A DNA stretch of 64,000 nt from NCBI RefSeq assembly GCF_000993825.1, contig NZ_CP011114.1:2666001-2730000 (forward strand). Direction: 5' to 3'. Each line of letters starts with the position of its first letter. Within the stretch, counting starts at the first letter, position 1. Below are positions 9,106 through 25,470 of the stretch, piece by piece. Origin of the DNA: Paenibacillus durus ATCC 35681. Its GTDB lineage: Bacteria > Bacillota > Bacilli > Paenibacillales > Paenibacillaceae. The notes beneath the pieces are model-generated. The model was given only the letters and a program-made list of their open reading frames with translations. It searched no databases and was not told the DNA's origin. Position numbers and translations under genes: made by a program.

Positions 9106-9154
9106 AAAATCGGAGTAGCGGGATTCGAACCCACGGCCTCACCCACCCCAAGGG
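9106..9154. repeat. Left attachment site, 49-bp copy of the tRNA-Pro 3' half
   Basis: Perfect match to 25422-25470. It covers the acceptor 3' strand, T arm and part of the anticodon arm of the tRNA but has no tRNA 5' half, so it is the displaced fragment left by integration. Confidence 0.95.
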
Positions 9155-13693: not shown

Positions 13694-15271
13694 TTAAGCC
13701 ACCTCAACGTAATATTTATTTGCTTTTATTCCTTGAATCGAAAGCATAAACGATATAACCAAATCATCATGATTAGATCGGGATTTGTTCTCCATTTTGT
13801 TGTCCTTTTCAATAAAGGTTTGCATCTGCTTCAGCGTTTCCTTACATTCAATTTTTATTAATTGACATTCAAACATTTCCTTTGCATCCGTCACAGCTTT
13901 ATTTTTCGTAACAGTGTTGCTACTCCAGCCTAATTGCAGCCTTGTCTTACCTTTGTCGAAATGACGATGCTTGAACAGATTTAGATATGGCATTTCACCT
14001 TCACGCAATCGCTCAAGCACTGATGTTCCAAAACCGTTCCTTTCAATGACAATAAAGGCGTAATTAAAAAACAGCCCAATCTCTCGGACTATTTCAGCGA
14101 ATTTATAAACTGGAATATCATTTCGATAAAATGAAGCATACTGCTGCCCATCTGCACCGAATACACTCATTGTTGAGTAGTCATTACCGCTGCCAGATGC
14201 AACGTCTACTCCTGCGAACATTCTCTGTTTTTGCTTCGGTAAACGAAAAATTTCTAAACCTTTTCCTATGTATTGCTTCAGTAGATCTGGAATATGTCCA
14301 AGTTCATCCTTGGGCAAAGGAGGGAGTATGTAATTAATCTGTTCTGCTATCTTCGTTTGATCGAATACAGATTGTCCAGTGTTAATAAACGCTTGTATAT
14401 CAGTAGCAGGATACTCTTGATAAAATTGGTTTTTGTCTTTGTCCTGTAGTATGTAGTCACGCCACATCAACATATTCAGGCTACATCCAGCAGCATGTAA
14501 CTGTTTTTGTTCAGTACTCAAATCTTTGGCGCTCATGCGCTGCCCTTTATTATTGGCCCTGTACCATTTCACGGCTTCTTGAATATCATAAGCGAATTGT
14601 TTTTCATAAGCGGAAGCATAAAAGGGGAAGAAGAATGCTTTATATTTACTCAATTCCTTATTTGCCCGATCATATAGCTTTTGAAAGTCATTAAATCCGT
14701 TGGCTGTAGACTCAAGTACAATCTTACTTCGCTCTGTCTTTTGCAATGCTGGTTCCAATGATAATAGAATGCCGTTCAAATCGTCGTAAAAAGCCGCTTC
14801 AGACAATAGAACGTACATTAGGTTCATGCCTCGACCTAAATCCTTATTTCCCGTTGTCGTACTCCTGATAGTGCTGCCGTTGTCAAAAACCAGTTCATCT
14901 CTATTGTCACGTACAACGGAAGGGAAAGCATCGTATTTTGAACGGGGCAAATGATCATTCATCCGCTTAAGCTTGGCAAACAAATCCTTTGCAGAGTCAC
15001 CTTTATAGCTCACGATTAATTAATTGGTATTGGGATTGTTAACGGCCATCCACAAACAGTAGGCGAGGGAAGCTGTAGTAAAACCTAACTGGCGTGGCTT
15101 TAGAATTAGATTATATTTTCCAGATTTATCAATAAAACACTGCTGCTGGTCATTCAGCAAAAATGGAACAAGCTCACCATCATTATTTACAATTTTAATA
15201 AAATTTTTACAGAATAGATCAAACGAGTTCATTACTTTATTGATTTTCTGCGACTTCGTTAATGCTACCAT
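13694..15271 (-). pseudogene. terL: Terminase large subunit split by an in-frame stop codon
   Basis: Two pieces in one frame, 15271-15020 (83 aa) and 15019-13694. The first ends NNPNTN, then TAA (15020-15022), and reading resumes as LIVSYKGDSAKDLF. The first piece holds the ATPase Walker A-like PRQLGFTT; the second holds the Walker B-like YVLLSEAAF, the RNase-H-type nuclease residues in AGVDVASG and SNHDDLVIS. The family commonly has Tyr or another residue at the stop position, so one base change explains it. The GTG at 15013 has no ribosome binding site. Unless read through or suppressed, packaging motor activity is lost. Confidence 0.85.
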
Positions 15272-15897: not shown

Positions 15898-16190
15898 ATC
15901 GTAAAATCAAAATCCATATCGTAAAACAATCGTAGTTTTATCGTAGAATCAAAAACCCAAAACTCCTTGATAGATAAGGATTTTTGAAGAAATATCGTAA
16001 AATCGTAAAAACTTTTCACTTACTTGTATACTTTGTACAGTAATACATCTGAAAATTTTTCTGAAAAAGTCATTTCATTTTACGATTTTACGATATAGAC
16101 GCTAAAACCCTTGATACATAAGGTTTTTTTGAAAATCCATTTTACGATATTTTTACGATCATTCTACGATTTTCGAACCCATTCTACGAT
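15898..16190. other. Candidate replication origin: 12 iterons in mirror symmetry
   Basis: Six ATCGTARAA-type 9-mers start at 15898, 15918, 15929, 15940, 15994 and 16002; six in the opposite orientation (TTYTACGAT) start at 16078, 16086, 16140, 16151, 16162 and 16182. Spacings are 20, 11, 11, 54, 8 on the left and 8, 54, 11, 11, 20 on the right, so the dyad centre is at 16044. The 54-base gaps each hold CCTTGATANATAAGG, at 15965-15979 and 16109-16123, also equidistant from the centre. The middle 67 bases are AT-rich. It lies immediately downstream of the primase-helicase gene, as in SaPI-type origins whose Rep protein binds iterons on both sides of an AT-rich stretch. Confidence 0.85.
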
Positions 16191-16194
16191 ATTA

Positions 16195-17583
16195 TTACTG
16201 AAAGGGATCGGTGAAATCTTCTTTCACTTTAATTCCCATCCAACAGCGAATACCTCTTTTATTAATCAATTTGTCTTTGCATTCCAAGTTGAAGCGGTCA
16301 GTCAAGCGTTGATTAAAGTTCTTTTTACCCAAAGCGTTCCTGATACCCCATTCATCACAGAAATTCCGGTAATGCTGATACAGACTTGAGGTTGATATGT
16401 AATAGTCTTCAGCCAACTCGCATTGTTCATCAACAAATTGAAGTAGTGTATCGCAATGTTTCCGGTATTGCTCAATAGCATTCGTCAAGCTTTCACCCAT
16501 TGTAAATTGCTTGTTTTTATGTAGTCTATGTATTCCTTGGATAGCATAGTTCAATAGTGTTGAAAGAGCGCTATCGGTTGTTAATTTATGTATCAAATTA
16601 ACATCTCTATTAGCATTGGTAAACTTGTTTTTAAACTCGAATATCAACCAACGGCGAAAATAACCATCTGACATATCTGGAGTCACTACCATGTGGTTGG
16701 CGGAGAATAATAATTTCGTGGAAGGTTGGAACGATTTAGGGTCTTTATTTTTGCGTTCAATTGTAATCGCTTCATTAGAGACAATTGCTTTAAAATTTCC
16801 TGTATCCTCAATTGGTTTCTGCGGCAAGTCAGAAAATGCGTTTAAAAGCTTACCTTCAAGCCCTGCCACCCTGAACCTGTGATCTAAGTCCTGAAGGGAT
16901 ATGTTACTAACATTTTCTTTACCTAATAAAGCGGTAATCATGTCTATTGCAACAGATTTACCATTACTACCGACTCCAGTGAACAAACACGCCTTCTCCA
17001 TATGTAAATTATTAGTCAATATGTAACCAACCAACTCGTAGAATGCTTCATGTGAATCTTCAGGTAAAACACTCGAAACAAAATTATGTATAACAGGGTC
17101 ATTTGCGTTTGAATCAAACTTCACGGGCAATTGATATGTACACAAATATTGCGGAGAATGGGGAAGCAACTGTCCCGTGAAAGGATCAAGCATTCCATTC
17201 TTAACATTGAGTAAATTGGAAGGAGGGTTCATACTCTGACCCTCTAAGAGTTGTCTTTCGTTTTGAGCATAGTAGAGTGATTCACTGATATGTGTCCGTC
17301 TACTACTCTCACCGATTAGTTCCTGTCCGATTGCCCTATAATAAGGTTCACCGTCATTTTTATAGTAACCGTCATGGTGATAACGCCAAAGGATTTGACT
17401 GTCATAGACAAAACTAAAACGTTGGATCATGTCCTCAGCATGTTTGGCATGCTGAAATTTTTTATCAATAAAGTAAGGTGATATTACCTTCGTTACAGGT
17501 TTGGTCTCGTTATTCGTTGATGCGTTTGTAGTACTTTTCAGCATGTTTAGTTTATTTTGCAAGTCTGTGATGCTTTTACTCAA
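16195..17583 (-). CDS. D5-type primase-helicase (SF3 ATPase), probable replication initiator
   Basis: 462 residues from TTG 17583, eight bases after GGTGG and overlapping the stop of the preceding gene; TTG 17598 is also possible. D5_N-like region about 60-190, then an SF3 helicase core: Walker A GVGSNGKS (203-210), Walker B around LLNAFSDLP (246-254), sensor TKLLFSAN and the Arg finger region DGYFRRWLIFEF (306-317). The C-terminal ~110 residues resemble a winged-helix DNA-binding domain. No clear archaeo-eukaryotic primase domain is present at the N-terminus, so it may be helicase only. The iteron origin begins five bases past its stop, so it probably binds and unwinds it. Confidence 0.85.
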   Translation of the reverse strand: MSKSITDLQNKLNMLKSTTNASTNNETKPVTKVISPYFIDKKFQHAKHAEDMIQRFSFVYDSQILWRYHHDGYYKNDGEPYYRAIGQELIGESSRRTHISESLYYAQNERQLLEGQSMNPPSNLLNVKNGMLDPFTGQLLPHSPQYLCTYQLPVKFDSNANDPVIHNFVSSVLPEDSHEAFYELVGYILTNNLHMEKACLFTGVGSNGKSVAIDMITALLGKENVSNISLQDLDHRFRVAGLEGKLLNAFSDLPQKPIEDTGNFKAIVSNEAITIERKNKDPKSFQPSTKLLFSANHMVVTPDMSDGYFRRWLIFEFKNKFTNANRDVNLIHKLTTDSALSTLLNYAIQGIHRLHKNKQFTMGESLTNAIEQYRKHCDTLLQFVDEQCELAEDYYISTSSLYQHYRNFCDEWGIRNALGKKNFNQRLTDRFNLECKDKLINKRGIRCWMGIKVKEDFTDPFQ

Positions 17584-17938
17584 ATTTAGCACCACCAATT
17601 AAGCGGAATAGTTCATCCTGGCACTTTTGGATTTCAGTTTCAGCCGTATCTCGAATCTTAGAATACTCCCGGATTTCATTCATTAATTGTTGATGTCGAG
17701 GGAGTGTTTCGAAGAAAGGGTTGTCAGGGCCTATATCTTGATTCTGGTTATTGGCCCAGTATTCAAATGGATTATCTGAGGAAGGTTCTTTATAATCATT
17801 CTTATTCCACATGAAATCGTCAATCCATCGTTCACCGTCCCAATACTCTTTTTTACCTTTACTATTTTTTCGAAAGTCTCCAACTTTATATTCGTTTCCG
17901 TATCCATCATAGGTCAGTTGTCCAAGCTCATATCTCAT
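17576..17938 (-). CDS. Hypothetical element protein, 120 aa
   Basis: Starts at ATG 17938 behind GGGGAG; its 3' end overlaps the primase-helicase start, showing co-translation. Aromatic/charged N-terminal half with YWDGERWIDDF and a coiled-coil-like C-terminus (RDTAETEIQKCQDELFRL). Could be a helicase loader or accessory factor by position only. Confidence 0.6.
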   Translation of the reverse strand: MRYELGQLTYDGYGNEYKVGDFRKNSKGKKEYWDGERWIDDFMWNKNDYKEPSSDNPFEYWANNQNQDIGPDNPFFETLPRHQQLMNEIREYSKIRDTAETEIQKCQDELFRLIGGAKFE

Positions 17939-20946: not shown

Positions 20947-22353
20947 TTAAAAGCCGACATGTTTTGAAAAATACTTTGCAACCTTTTTTGAAATGCTGCT
21001 CTTCAATGTTCGATTCATCTTTTCTGTGCTGATTTTCAATTTTTTACTATTTACTTTAGCAGTCGAAGAACTATATAAAAAAGCGTCCAGAATGTCTTTA
21101 TGTAGAGGATCTCGAAATTCAATCTTCTGAGAATTTTGCTCAAATTCTCGAAGAATTGTATATAGCGGGGAGTCTACTTGGTATTGATACTTACACCAAA
21201 GCGTATGATAATTTAAAATTAAAGCATGAATATGTAAGGGATTAGTATAATCGACGATATCTAATATAGTGTCAATGCAGACATCCAGCGTTTCATCATC
21301 ATTTGCTCTGTTTTTATTCGGACTGTGGTTGACAGTTCTAGGCTCATACATTAATGTATATTTGTATTGCAATTCGTTCGCTATTTTGTAGACTTCCCGC
21401 TGCTGTTTGCTTCCTCTCGGCAACGATCCAGCAATAGAACGAATCTGTTGCGTCTCATCATACAGTTCCCGCTGTTCGATGAGCATTTCTACGTAAGGTG
21501 TTTTTTCTCCGTTTATTTCTTCCCACGATGGAGCTAAAGGATAACGTTTGCTCTTTTTTTCTTCAATGTGGCAATAATCCACTCTTTGAAACCCGGTTTC
21601 AGATTTGGGTTTAATGTAATCATCAATAGACCAATCAGGACTATCTAAGTCTGATTTTCCTATGATTTCATCATAGGATGAAACTAATTTATTGTATTGT
21701 TTACAACCGTATTCCGTTTCGTCTTCTTTACCCACGGTCTTTATTAGATATGTAGCAATTTCGTGTAAGGCGTATGTATAACCGTTTTGCTTGTGACCCC
21801 ATAAATTAAGGCCTTCACTTTGAGAGGGAATTTTACCGTTCCCTTTTGCTAAAAACTGATACAGGTAATTCGTTATGTAGTCCACAAAAAATTCATCAAC
21901 AAAGTAATCATCGTATGTAGTACTGATTTTGCTATTAGCTGGTTTAAGGCTCCCGAATGCTGTATGTTTATCGAAAATGCTTTCGACAATTTGCAAACGT
22001 TCTTCCTTCGTCTTTAAGTTCCTCTGAGCCTCGTGCTGCAAAAATCCTCTAATCACCTGATGGACATAGTAGAGAGGAACAGGTTTGCTATGAGGTTCTT
22101 GCTCTTTTGCTGAACATTTGTCTGCAATCTTCTTTCCAGTGTTCCAATCAAGCTTTGGCTTGTGCGTATATCGATCAATCAGTGTCTGGAATTTTTGTTT
22201 AACATCGTCAGGAACCAAGTCAGATGAAACATTCTTCCATTGACGTTCGCGGTTTTGCTCAATAGTGAGTTTACGAGAGGGGATGAAATTAGGATCTAGC
22301 TGCTGCCACTGCTTTGACACGGTATTCCATCTGTACTTTTTTGTTTGGTTCAA
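20947..22353 (-). CDS. Unrecognised 468-aa element protein
   Basis: Starts at TTG 22353, 12 bases behind AAAGGAG. Mostly helical, no membrane segment, no catalytic motif that I recognise. Residues 90-260 contain a repeated Tyr/Asp-rich stretch (TYDDYFVDEFFVDYITNYL). The last 30 residues (SKKLKISTEKMNRTLKSSIS) look like a basic helix-turn-helix or winged tail. It is the largest early gene, between zinc-ribbon protein and scaffold, so it may control late genes or be an internal virion protein. Only its reading frame and signals are firm. Confidence 0.6.
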   Translation of the reverse strand: MNQTKKYRWNTVSKQWQQLDPNFIPSRKLTIEQNRERQWKNVSSDLVPDDVKQKFQTLIDRYTHKPKLDWNTGKKIADKCSAKEQEPHSKPVPLYYVHQVIRGFLQHEAQRNLKTKEERLQIVESIFDKHTAFGSLKPANSKISTTYDDYFVDEFFVDYITNYLYQFLAKGNGKIPSQSEGLNLWGHKQNGYTYALHEIATYLIKTVGKEDETEYGCKQYNKLVSSYDEIIGKSDLDSPDWSIDDYIKPKSETGFQRVDYCHIEEKKSKRYPLAPSWEEINGEKTPYVEMLIEQRELYDETQQIRSIAGSLPRGSKQQREVYKIANELQYKYTLMYEPRTVNHSPNKNRANDDETLDVCIDTILDIVDYTNPLHIHALILNYHTLWCKYQYQVDSPLYTILREFEQNSQKIEFRDPLHKDILDAFLYSSSTAKVNSKKLKISTEKMNRTLKSSISKKVAKYFSKHVGF

Positions 22354-24364: not shown

Positions 24365-25285
24365 CTATATATCCAAGTTGTTGAGAGGGTTATGCCGCTC
24401 ATTTATTTCAGGCAACACATGTCCAAATGCTGATAAATATTTCCTTGTAATTTCCATATTCTGATGTCGCAAGAGACGCTGAAGTGAAACTATATCTCCA
24501 CCATCCCGAAGAAATCGGTACGCAAGGCTATGTCTGAACGTATGAGCACTTAATCGCACATCTTTAAAGTTCATTTTTGCCTGTAACCGTTTGAAAATCA
24601 ATTTGATGCCGTTAGGACTCAACTGCTTGTTATCGTCGGTACTGAATACATAAATCGGCTTTTGCCCCAATTTCCGTTCCTGAAACAATCTCCATTCGGC
24701 AAGCTCCGCTAATAGTTTGTCTACAAGAGGTACGCTTTGTTGCCTACGTAATTTACCGAAAAATATTGCCGCCTTATTTTCAAAGTCAATATGATCCCAT
24801 CTGATATTGCTGGCTTCTCCAACACGAGCGCCTGTGGACAGCAAGAAGAGGATTAAGGCATAATCTCGATAAGCATAATATGATTTGTCCTTTTGTTTCA
24901 GATTACGGTAGTAACTCAACATCTGTTTGATATGGTAATCTTGAAATACAGGGATAATGATATCTTCTTTTCCGTAGTTCACTTTTTTGGCCGGATTTTG
25001 CTTTTCGGTAATATATTCATTCGTGACCATATCATTAAACAGAGTTTTGATAACTCTCAATTTGGAGTTTTTTGTAACAACCCCATTACCTTTGGCCTCT
25101 TGGCAATGAAGCAAGTATTTTTTTACTGTTGGAGTCATTACCTCTTCAACGTTAACAATTTCCTCGGATACACAGAAAGCGTGGAACTCATCGAGAGTAC
25201 GAGTATATCTGTCCAATGTGTGCGGAGAGACATTATTCAATTTTCTTTCGTCCAAAAAACTTTTGATTGCAAATTTTAACAACAA
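24365..25285 (-). CDS. int: Tyrosine recombinase (integrase)
   Basis: 306 residues from TTG 25285, nine bases after AAAGGAG. N-terminal SAM-like domain (residues 1-100: core-binding helices), then the catalytic domain with the full set: R154 (TGARVGEASNIRW), K178, H248 and R251 (HTFRH), H274 (LLRHQNM) and nucleophile Y283 (TRKYLSAFGH). It cuts and joins the tRNA-Pro attachment core to move the element in and out. Located 137 bases from the right attachment repeat, as usual. XerC/D-like length without an arm-binding domain. Confidence 0.95.
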   Translation of the reverse strand: MLLKFAIKSFLDERKLNNVSPHTLDRYTRTLDEFHAFCVSEEIVNVEEVMTPTVKKYLLHCQEAKGNGVVTKNSKLRVIKTLFNDMVTNEYITEKQNPAKKVNYGKEDIIIPVFQDYHIKQMLSYYRNLKQKDKSYYAYRDYALILFLLSTGARVGEASNIRWDHIDFENKAAIFFGKLRRQQSVPLVDKLLAELAEWRLFQERKLGQKPIYVFSTDDNKQLSPNGIKLIFKRLQAKMNFKDVRLSAHTFRHSLAYRFLRDGGDIVSLQRLLRHQNMEITRKYLSAFGHVLPEINERHNPLNNLDI

Positions 25286-25421: not shown

Positions 25422-25470
25422 AAAATCGGAGTAGCGGGATTCGAACCCACGGCCTCACCCACCCCAAGGG
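25422..25470. repeat. Right attachment site, inside the intact tRNA-Pro
   Basis: Perfect 49-bp match to 9106-9154; it starts just past the tRNA 3' end and extends to the anticodon arm. Confidence 0.95.

Follow-up and report, generated by a model that had tools for sequence, protein, structure and literature searches.

The replication origins of phage-inducible chromosomal islands (PICIs) carry two iteron sets about an AT-rich region, an arrangement that the main text of their description presents as shared by no other known bacterial replicon (Fillol-Salom 2018, PMC6092414), and the origins of Staphylococcus aureus pathogenicity islands (SaPIs) are attributed to Ubeda 2007 in the cited part of PMC7581432. 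A locus of similar layout occupies positions 15898-16190 of a 64,000-nucleotide stretch of Paenibacillus durus ATCC 35681 (contig NZ_CP011114.1, positions 2,666,001 to 2,730,000), hereafter the window. Judged from sequence and protein models, the locus is very probably the PICI/SaPI/P4-type replication origin of a 16-kb integrating phage-like element, where a helicase would bind the iterons, form two rings and melt the DNA between them. As in PICI and SaPI origins, the array lies 3' of the gene of a helicase and presumed initiator, and two iteron sets flank an AT-rich region. In contrast with those origins as described, the spacing is an exact mirror and each arm holds a palindrome; the text of PMC6092414, figures aside, mentions neither in the part available, where "hairpin" and "stem-loop" occur 0 times. 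Most likely the origin belongs to a known kind, set apart by the unusual exactness of its build and by a shared module of unexplained role.

The pattern ATCGTARAA has 13 matches in the 64-kb window against 1.43 expected, a number reached by 0 of 100 shuffles, and 11 of the 13 exact matches fall inside the array. Two sets of six 9-mers had been proposed in the original prediction; 11 sites are exact, and one set reaches six by way of the degenerate site L3 (two mismatches), which completes the two inverted sets. The centre spacings are 20-11-11-54-8 on the plus strand and precisely the reverse on the minus strand. All six iteron pairs mirror about 16044 at a tolerance of 0, as predicted; neither the 5000 random placements nor the 5000 permutations of the spacing order produced a single such case. 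The iterons of each arm cluster on one helix face (10.5-bp phase R of 0.88 in both arms, p 0.0036 and 0.0046), which counts as one fact and not two because the arms are mirrors. A CCTT-N7-AAGG quasi-palindrome is centred in each 54-bp gap (Table 1), and the gaps from iteron core to palindrome are 16-17 bp in both arms, in the window and in its relative L029 alike. The claim of a palindrome at matched distance in each arm holds for the centres, whose mean is 16044, and not for the orientation, the two copies being direct repeats on the plus strand (31 nt, 81%). Taken together with its flank as GCTAAAACCC, the right-arm palindrome agrees with the 83-locus viral consensus presented below; the flank of the left copy agrees less well. 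The centre of the array is AT-rich as proposed (22.5% GC in 40-bp windows); some arm windows are equally low, so it is not the sole AT-rich part. Arm-against-arm identity amounts to 47 of 53 iteron positions, 16 of 27 positions in the palindrome region and 9 of the 33 remaining inter-iteron positions, where 8.1 are expected. Little symmetry thus exists beyond the sites, as had been claimed, and spacer sequence is unrelated while spacer length is unchanged.

The minus-strand gene that ends at 16195, immediately beside the array, encodes a superfamily 3 (SF3) helicase that resembles the SaPI5 primase-helicase (7ola), to which it is homologous, and whose residues 381-463 match the P4 origin-binding domain (1ka8), placing a winged helix at the C-terminus. 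By sequence and model the presumed initiator is a SaPI-Rep-like helicase with a predicted C-terminal DNA-binding domain. The protein had been taken for a 462-aa primase-helicase; the open reading frame (ORF) is instead one of 467 aa from a TTG start, in which only helicase and winged-helix regions are recognised, and Pfam and NCBIfam scans of the 467 aa gave no match to a primase catalytic or TOPRIM domain, profile absence not being proof. The gene is present in a single copy in the 5.58-Mb genome. Its nearest homologues, P0001-P0009, are from Paenibacillus and share 48-71% identity; among them P0006, which reads the same as the L029 helicase, is the one compared at the DNA level. The helicases P0001, P0002 and P0004 are 68-71% identical to that of the window and differ from it in the C-terminal segment past residue ~380; if the helicase reads the iterons, those beside their genes should differ from the window's. 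The original call of a replication origin is well supported by the place of the array just behind an SF3 helicase gene, by its pair of iteron sets around an AT-rich centre and by the P4-like C-terminal fold of the protein.

Phage P4 is similar in that its type-1 iterons lie 3' of the SF3 gene (alpha protein) and in the winged-helix match. Its crr differs in consisting of two 120-bp direct repeats, unmirrored (2 pairs, p 0.78), whereas the window arms are inverted iteron sets; the window palindrome has no match below 3 mismatches anywhere in P4, and, unlike the alpha protein, the window protein has no TOPRIM match by Pfam or NCBIfam profiles. In the available text on the staphylococcal cassette chromosome mec (SCCmec), the initiator helicase Cch2 likewise binds direct repeats downstream of its own gene via its C-terminal domain, beside potential hairpin inverted repeats that are dispensable for Cch2 binding; unlike the window array, this is one short 23-bp direct-repeat region, and that text describes no mirror arms (PMC7581432). 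The plasmid RSF1010 oriV also combines iterons and short stem-loops at one origin, its ssiA/ssiB providing a model for palindromes as primase start sites, and both pRN1 and RSF1010 have stem-loop origins; the likeness is one of description, and, unlike in the window, helicase, primase and iteron binder are separate proteins in RSF1010 (excerpted text of PMC4234260). PICI-like elements (PLEs) use a different initiator, according to the portion seen of PMC7145576.

A portal search retrieved 22 viral loci, including the window itself and L029, with a gene order that is largely common wherever sequence suffices. The IMG/VR contig L009 is the same DNA as the window (100% over 14,813 bases), and L009, L044 and L181, all of the same contig, were excluded from the relatives. 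The slot between the tail-fibre-like gene and the presumed small terminase gene (TerS) holds different replication genes in different relatives: the SF3 profile matches only the window copy (L181) and L029 among the 22, and ten other slot proteins scanned gave DUF3987 in L185, a TOTE-type primase domain in L183, a weak helix-turn-helix in L184 and no match in seven. The L029 helicase is 65% identical to that of the window, and GTTGTARAA iterons lie 3' of its gene; in its inner module the two iteron pairs and the palindromes of both arms form an exact mirror about 6792. In L185 (portal 70% identical), AGYGTAGAW iterons lie between the DUF3987 gene and TerS, with palindromes at 2327 and ~2519. 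With 1 bp allowed, six pairs among its 14 sites are mirrored (reached by 0 of 5000 trials in each of the two nulls), a symmetry spotted by eye ahead of the statistical test, and at tolerance 0 two pairs only are mirrored (p 0.93). No similarity was found between the DUF3987 helicase of L185 and the window helicase; GTARA is common to the iterons of all three loci. In the comparison of spacing in related elements, put forward as a check, L185 speaks for selection of the geometry and L029 does so in part, its inner module being exact and its outer sites slightly off or unpaired.

Equal numbers of sites and identical spacings in both arms would also be expected of an inverted duplication whose spacing was merely inherited, and L029, the closest relative compared at the DNA level, departs slightly from the full mirror in its outer sites. 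Such a relic is an unlikely source of the symmetry, as the inter-iteron identity outside the palindromes is at chance at unchanged length and L185 keeps its six pairs within 1 bp although its iteron differs and its helicase is unrelated.

The array has the replication gene on one side and the presumed TerS gene on the other in the window, L029 and L185, and some phages have repeat-containing pac sites near terS. The repeats could accordingly be a packaging (pac/cos) site bound by the small terminase of the adjoining gene, a reading we consider very improbable. The most similar TerS relatives are without a comparable array (L182, 57%; L183, 63%; L184, 64%; L186, 59% identity), the commonest 7-mer per 300 bp reaching 3-4 copies in L182, L184 and L186, and L183 having five GTTTAAA beside its own replication gene. 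L029 and L185 do carry arrays, with TerS identities of 32% and 37%, and arrays follow the SF3 genes of L247, L248, L253 and P4, where the next annotated gene is not a terminase. Array presence does not track TerS similarity, so that the arrays go with the replication gene.

Beyond these loci, helicase searches of genome contigs for close DNA relatives returned none, or one distant locus. Counting the window's own, 15 of 197 family genomes (best other 36% identity), 3 of 100 genus genomes (best other 32%) and 8 of 394 family genomes (best other 42%) gave matches, none of the others close and the sets overlapping, and DNA-level BLAST of the L029 origin against phages and of the window origin against plasmids returned nothing. 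Of 42 loci (41 with SF3-type genes, plus L185 with DUF3987), 19, among them P4, have a significant cluster of repeats no more than 450 bp 3' of the gene. Mirror p values of 0.01 or below were obtained in 6 of 27 loci, which form four sequence clusters (window; L185; L052 and L114; L068 and L161), and, in a second survey, in 5 of 25 regions (window, L029, L185, L052, L157); the surveyed loci were chosen for having repeats, and the results vary with the seed word, L068 falling to p 0.07. Mirror symmetry as a universal rule was rejected. The module pattern iteron-16-palindrome-16-iteron occurs in 7 viral stretches, including the window and the contig of L029; the other five are taken as chance, being single matches with no opposed module pair, and one of them, L045, has further similar palindromes nearby. 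In the 394 family genomes the module pattern matched only in the window itself. The related genomes of L034-L038 and L041 have longer SF3 genes (~623 aa) with GGAAACA repeat arrays behind them, whose mirroring is doubtful (three tested; p 0.02, 0.06 and 0.8).

Several observations weigh against the origin as read here. A mirror is absent from most of the other iteron regions tested, among them P4 crr. The outer sites of L029 are looser: two outer pairs are centred 1 bp away, one plus-strand site has only a degenerate partner and one minus-strand site (centre 6924) has none. Its iterons alone give 2 pairs at tolerances 0 and 1 (p 0.54 and 0.92; spacing-order null 0.93 and 0.998) and 4 pairs at tolerance 2 (p 0.012; spacing-order null 0.042); two further surveys gave p 0.22 and 0.008, so that the values range overall from 0.008 to 0.998 and depend on seed word and tolerance. 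The relatives show no clear helical phasing (L029, p 0.08 and 0.77; L185, p 0.11 and 0.02), and the AlphaFold model of the helicase is middling, with a mean pLDDT of 68.4 from 10 sequences. GC skew shows no switch at the origin, which says little because the element is integrated and its named genes are all on one strand. Selection for geometry, as originally suggested, is favoured by chance-identity spacers of unchanged length, by L185 and partly by L029, and weakened by the unmirrored majority of the other iteron origins tested. The original prediction had picked out a real, unusual feature and most likely judged its function correctly in outline.

In the mechanism that we propose, the SF3 helicase would bind the ATCGTARAA iterons via its C-terminal winged helix, and winged helices would dock on the six in-phase iterons of each arm. 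The 54-bp gap of about five helical turns would hold a module that bends, is structured or is read by another factor. One helicase ring would be nucleated per arm, leaving two hexamers to face each other across 67 bp, and the opposed rings would melt this central AT-rich DNA and unwind outwards, giving a bidirectional start. Since the helicase seemingly lacks a primase, the host or a further protein would have to supply priming. The palindromes on the opened strands could act as start signals like RSF1010 ssiA/ssiB or as bend sites, neither being preferred. The similar, less exact mirror layout of L029 and L185 points to a precise two-sided machine for opening DNA. To our knowledge, the paired loading of SF3 rings at the origins of bacterial mobile elements is little understood. 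A natural origin with a base-exact mirror, six sites and one palindrome per arm would be a ready substrate for footprinting and cryo-electron microscopy, and the relatives, in which iterons or helicase family differ under a layout that is in good part retained, allow geometry to be separated from sequence.

The palindrome extends well beyond this locus. The pattern ACCCTTGATANATAAGG was found in at least 120 viral stretches, against 11 for the same pattern backwards and 42 for a loop-permuted form, and at least 119 viral stretches other than the window (L050-L168) contain a motif near AAACCCTTGATAYATAAGGGTTT, for the most part in intergenic positions; they hold 122 places and form 83 sequence clusters. 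Only 9 of the 122 places lie in a stop-free frame of at least 150 codons; for the loop-permuted and reversed patterns the figures are 23 of 43 and 4 of 11. The loop-permuted pattern is rarer and about half in reading frames; the loop sequence therefore matters. In 83 representatives, positions outside the 17 searched bases (fixed, position 11 excepted, by the search itself) lengthen the consensus to AAACCCTTGATAYATAAGGGTTT; a GCT that precedes it is weaker, and at ~20 bp from the centre there are positions rich in A or T. A GT prolongs the stem at 49/122 motif places versus 3/43 loop-permuted ones, the next base alone being G in 74/122 and 25/43. In the same representatives the outer stem positions pair merely 0-0.07 above the prediction from column composition, an excess so small that base pairing itself is not shown to be selected; three of six motif copies tested fold clearly better than shuffles as single strands.

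Of the 110 loci tested (nine of the 119 lie too near an end), 24, in 14 sequence clusters, have repeats beside the motif, against 2/85 and 2/92 at 1.5-kb offsets in the same loci, 0/10 reversed and 1/40 loop-permuted controls. In 12 of 119 motif loci an SF3 gene is no farther away than 1.5 kb, versus 0/11 reversed and 0/42 loop-permuted, and in eight of the 119, seven of which are one sequence cluster, the motif stands 13-15 bp past the 3' end of an SF3 ORF. Among nearest genes (93/104 left and 94/105 right neighbours, near-duplicates dropped by eye), DUF5906 was found 9 times to the left and 5 to the right, and integrase 3 and 7 times. At the threshold of at least 4 copies, 86/110 loci failed the repeat test, and 104/119 have no SF3 gene in the stretch available; the motif is thus broader than SF3 origins. 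From the helicase side, 28 SF3 loci (two being the same gene) gave 17 matches at up to 3 mismatches against 14.5 in shuffles, which used only the first 4.3 kb of each, and a strict TTGATA hairpin occurs in 3 of 42 3' regions (window, L185, L255) versus 1 of 42 control stretches inside genes. No enrichment being seen from that side, the palindrome as a general mark of SF3 helicases is not supported. In 299 genomes of the window's phylum the longer motif form was found once and the backward control never. Near-matches (2-3 mismatches) occur 3' of SF3 genes, in a repeat-bearing region, in Staphylococcus phage PI-Sepi-HH2 (L244, position 4440) and Paenibacillus phage LincolnB (L245, positions 4072 and 4229), where the repeats are unmirrored.

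The A-rich and T-rich flanks of the palindromes, and the position just past the 3' end of the SF3 ORF in the eight loci above, could also befit bidirectional terminators within an operator or transcription-control region. This role for the array is the least probable of those considered: scans of the window call no terminator at the palindromes and 0 promoters (3.6 expected), an Rfam scan of the array gave no match, loop sequence matters, and the pairing excess of the outer stem is slight.

A further possibility, which we regard as rather doubtful and as an addition to the origin reading, is that the palindrome is a bend site for a protein of the integration host factor (IHF)/HU type that folds each 54-bp gap and so brings the iterons on either side together on one ring. 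Read on the reverse strand, the motif, TATCAANNNNTT, agrees with the IHF consensus, WATCAANNNNTTR, save for a varying last base that is unmatched in both window copies. The gap of ~5 helical turns and the A-rich (-10/-9) and T-rich (29-31) positions that flank the 83-locus consensus would suit such bending. Against it, IHF does not need the other half of the palindrome, and the nearest helicase homologues are from Paenibacillus, a lineage not known to have IHF. Six palindrome forms compared with 5.39 million open papers had one match, TTGATACATAAGG within an oriV primer of the Moraxella plasmid pMbo4.6; in the accessible part of the report this oriV is said to contain iterons and hairpin structures as well as an AT-rich region and a putative IHF site (PMC3557383). 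In the portions searched of a mostly open-access literature, the motif was not met described as part of an origin. Tentatively, and with the odds against it, the ~23-bp dyad may be a portable origin module that serves many phages and satellites of no mutual relation and is recognised by a conserved factor of the host, as a site for a bending protein or as a signal for priming or the primosome, with one copy per arm and the iteron helical phase setting an exact mirror scaffold that would position two opposed helicase rings. On this reading geometry rather than sequence would be inherited, given a layout that is largely kept across changes of iteron and even of helicase family. The palindrome may mark unannotated phage origins and raises the question of which protein reads it.

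Classical PICIs use helper capsids and have no capsid genes of their own. The 16-kb element of the window differs from them: it is bounded by a 49-bp repeat, one copy of which overlaps the 3' part of tRNA-Pro, and encodes, besides integrase and SF3 helicase, an SU10-like major capsid protein, an SPP1-like portal and a large terminase (TerL), together with two proteins that have tail-like PHROG matches. In having capsid genes it may resemble the capsid-forming PICIs (cfPICIs), satellites that in the text available have their own capsid genes and take tails from the helper (PMC11389934).

Table 1. Features of the array and of the element that carries it (window coordinates)
Feature	Position	Strand	Basis
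Iteron L1, ATCGTAAAA	15898..15906	+	pattern match and mirror test
Iteron L2, ATCGTAAAA	15918..15926	+	pattern match and mirror test
Iteron L3, degenerate, ATCGTAGTT, 2 mismatches	15929..15937	+	mirror test
Iteron L4, ATCGTAGAA	15940..15948	+	pattern match and mirror test
Iteron L5, ATCGTAAAA	15994..16002	+	pattern match and mirror test
Iteron L6, ATCGTAAAA	16002..16010	+	pattern match and mirror test
Central AT-rich spacer (67 bp), presumed melting site, mirror axis 16044	16011..16077	none	GC windows and mirror test
Iteron R6, ATCGTAAAA	16078..16086	-	pattern match and mirror test
Iteron R5, ATCGTAAAA	16086..16094	-	pattern match and mirror test
Iteron R4, ATCGTAAAA	16140..16148	-	pattern match and mirror test
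Iteron R3, ATCGTAAAA	16151..16159	-	pattern match and mirror test
Iteron R2, ATCGTAGAA	16162..16170	-	pattern match and mirror test
Iteron R1, ATCGTAGAA	16182..16190	-	pattern match and mirror test
Quasi-palindrome, left arm, CCTTGATAGATAAGG, centre 15972	15965..15979	+	
Quasi-palindrome, right arm, CCTTGATACATAAGG, centre 16116	16109..16123	+	
SF3 helicase, presumed initiator, 467 aa (DUF5906, D5_N, Pox_D5), C-terminal winged helix at residues ~381-463	16195..17598	-	
att repeat, distal copy, 49 bp	9106..9154	none	
att repeat overlapping tRNA-Pro 3' part, 49 bp	25422..25470	none	
Tyrosine integrase of the element	24365..25285	-	
Presumed small terminase (TerS), 137 aa	15314..15727	-	named by place before TerL, no family match

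The large terminase gene of the element (13694-15271) is split by an in-frame stop into ORFs 15020-15271 and 13694-15013, and is one frame in relatives such as L029, L182 and L183; with this interruption the element may be unable to package itself. L029 and L182-L201 are small integrating elements on contigs mostly up to ~14-17 kb, many of them incomplete, with the order integrase, scaffold, capsid, fibre-like gene, replication slot, TerS, TerL and portal, the replication gene being swapped among unrelated families. Upstream of the scaffold gene, a 468-aa protein (20947-22353) matches no Pfam family and falls in a PHROG family labelled sigma factor (E 1.8e-13), and its relatives are present in L182, L183 and L184.
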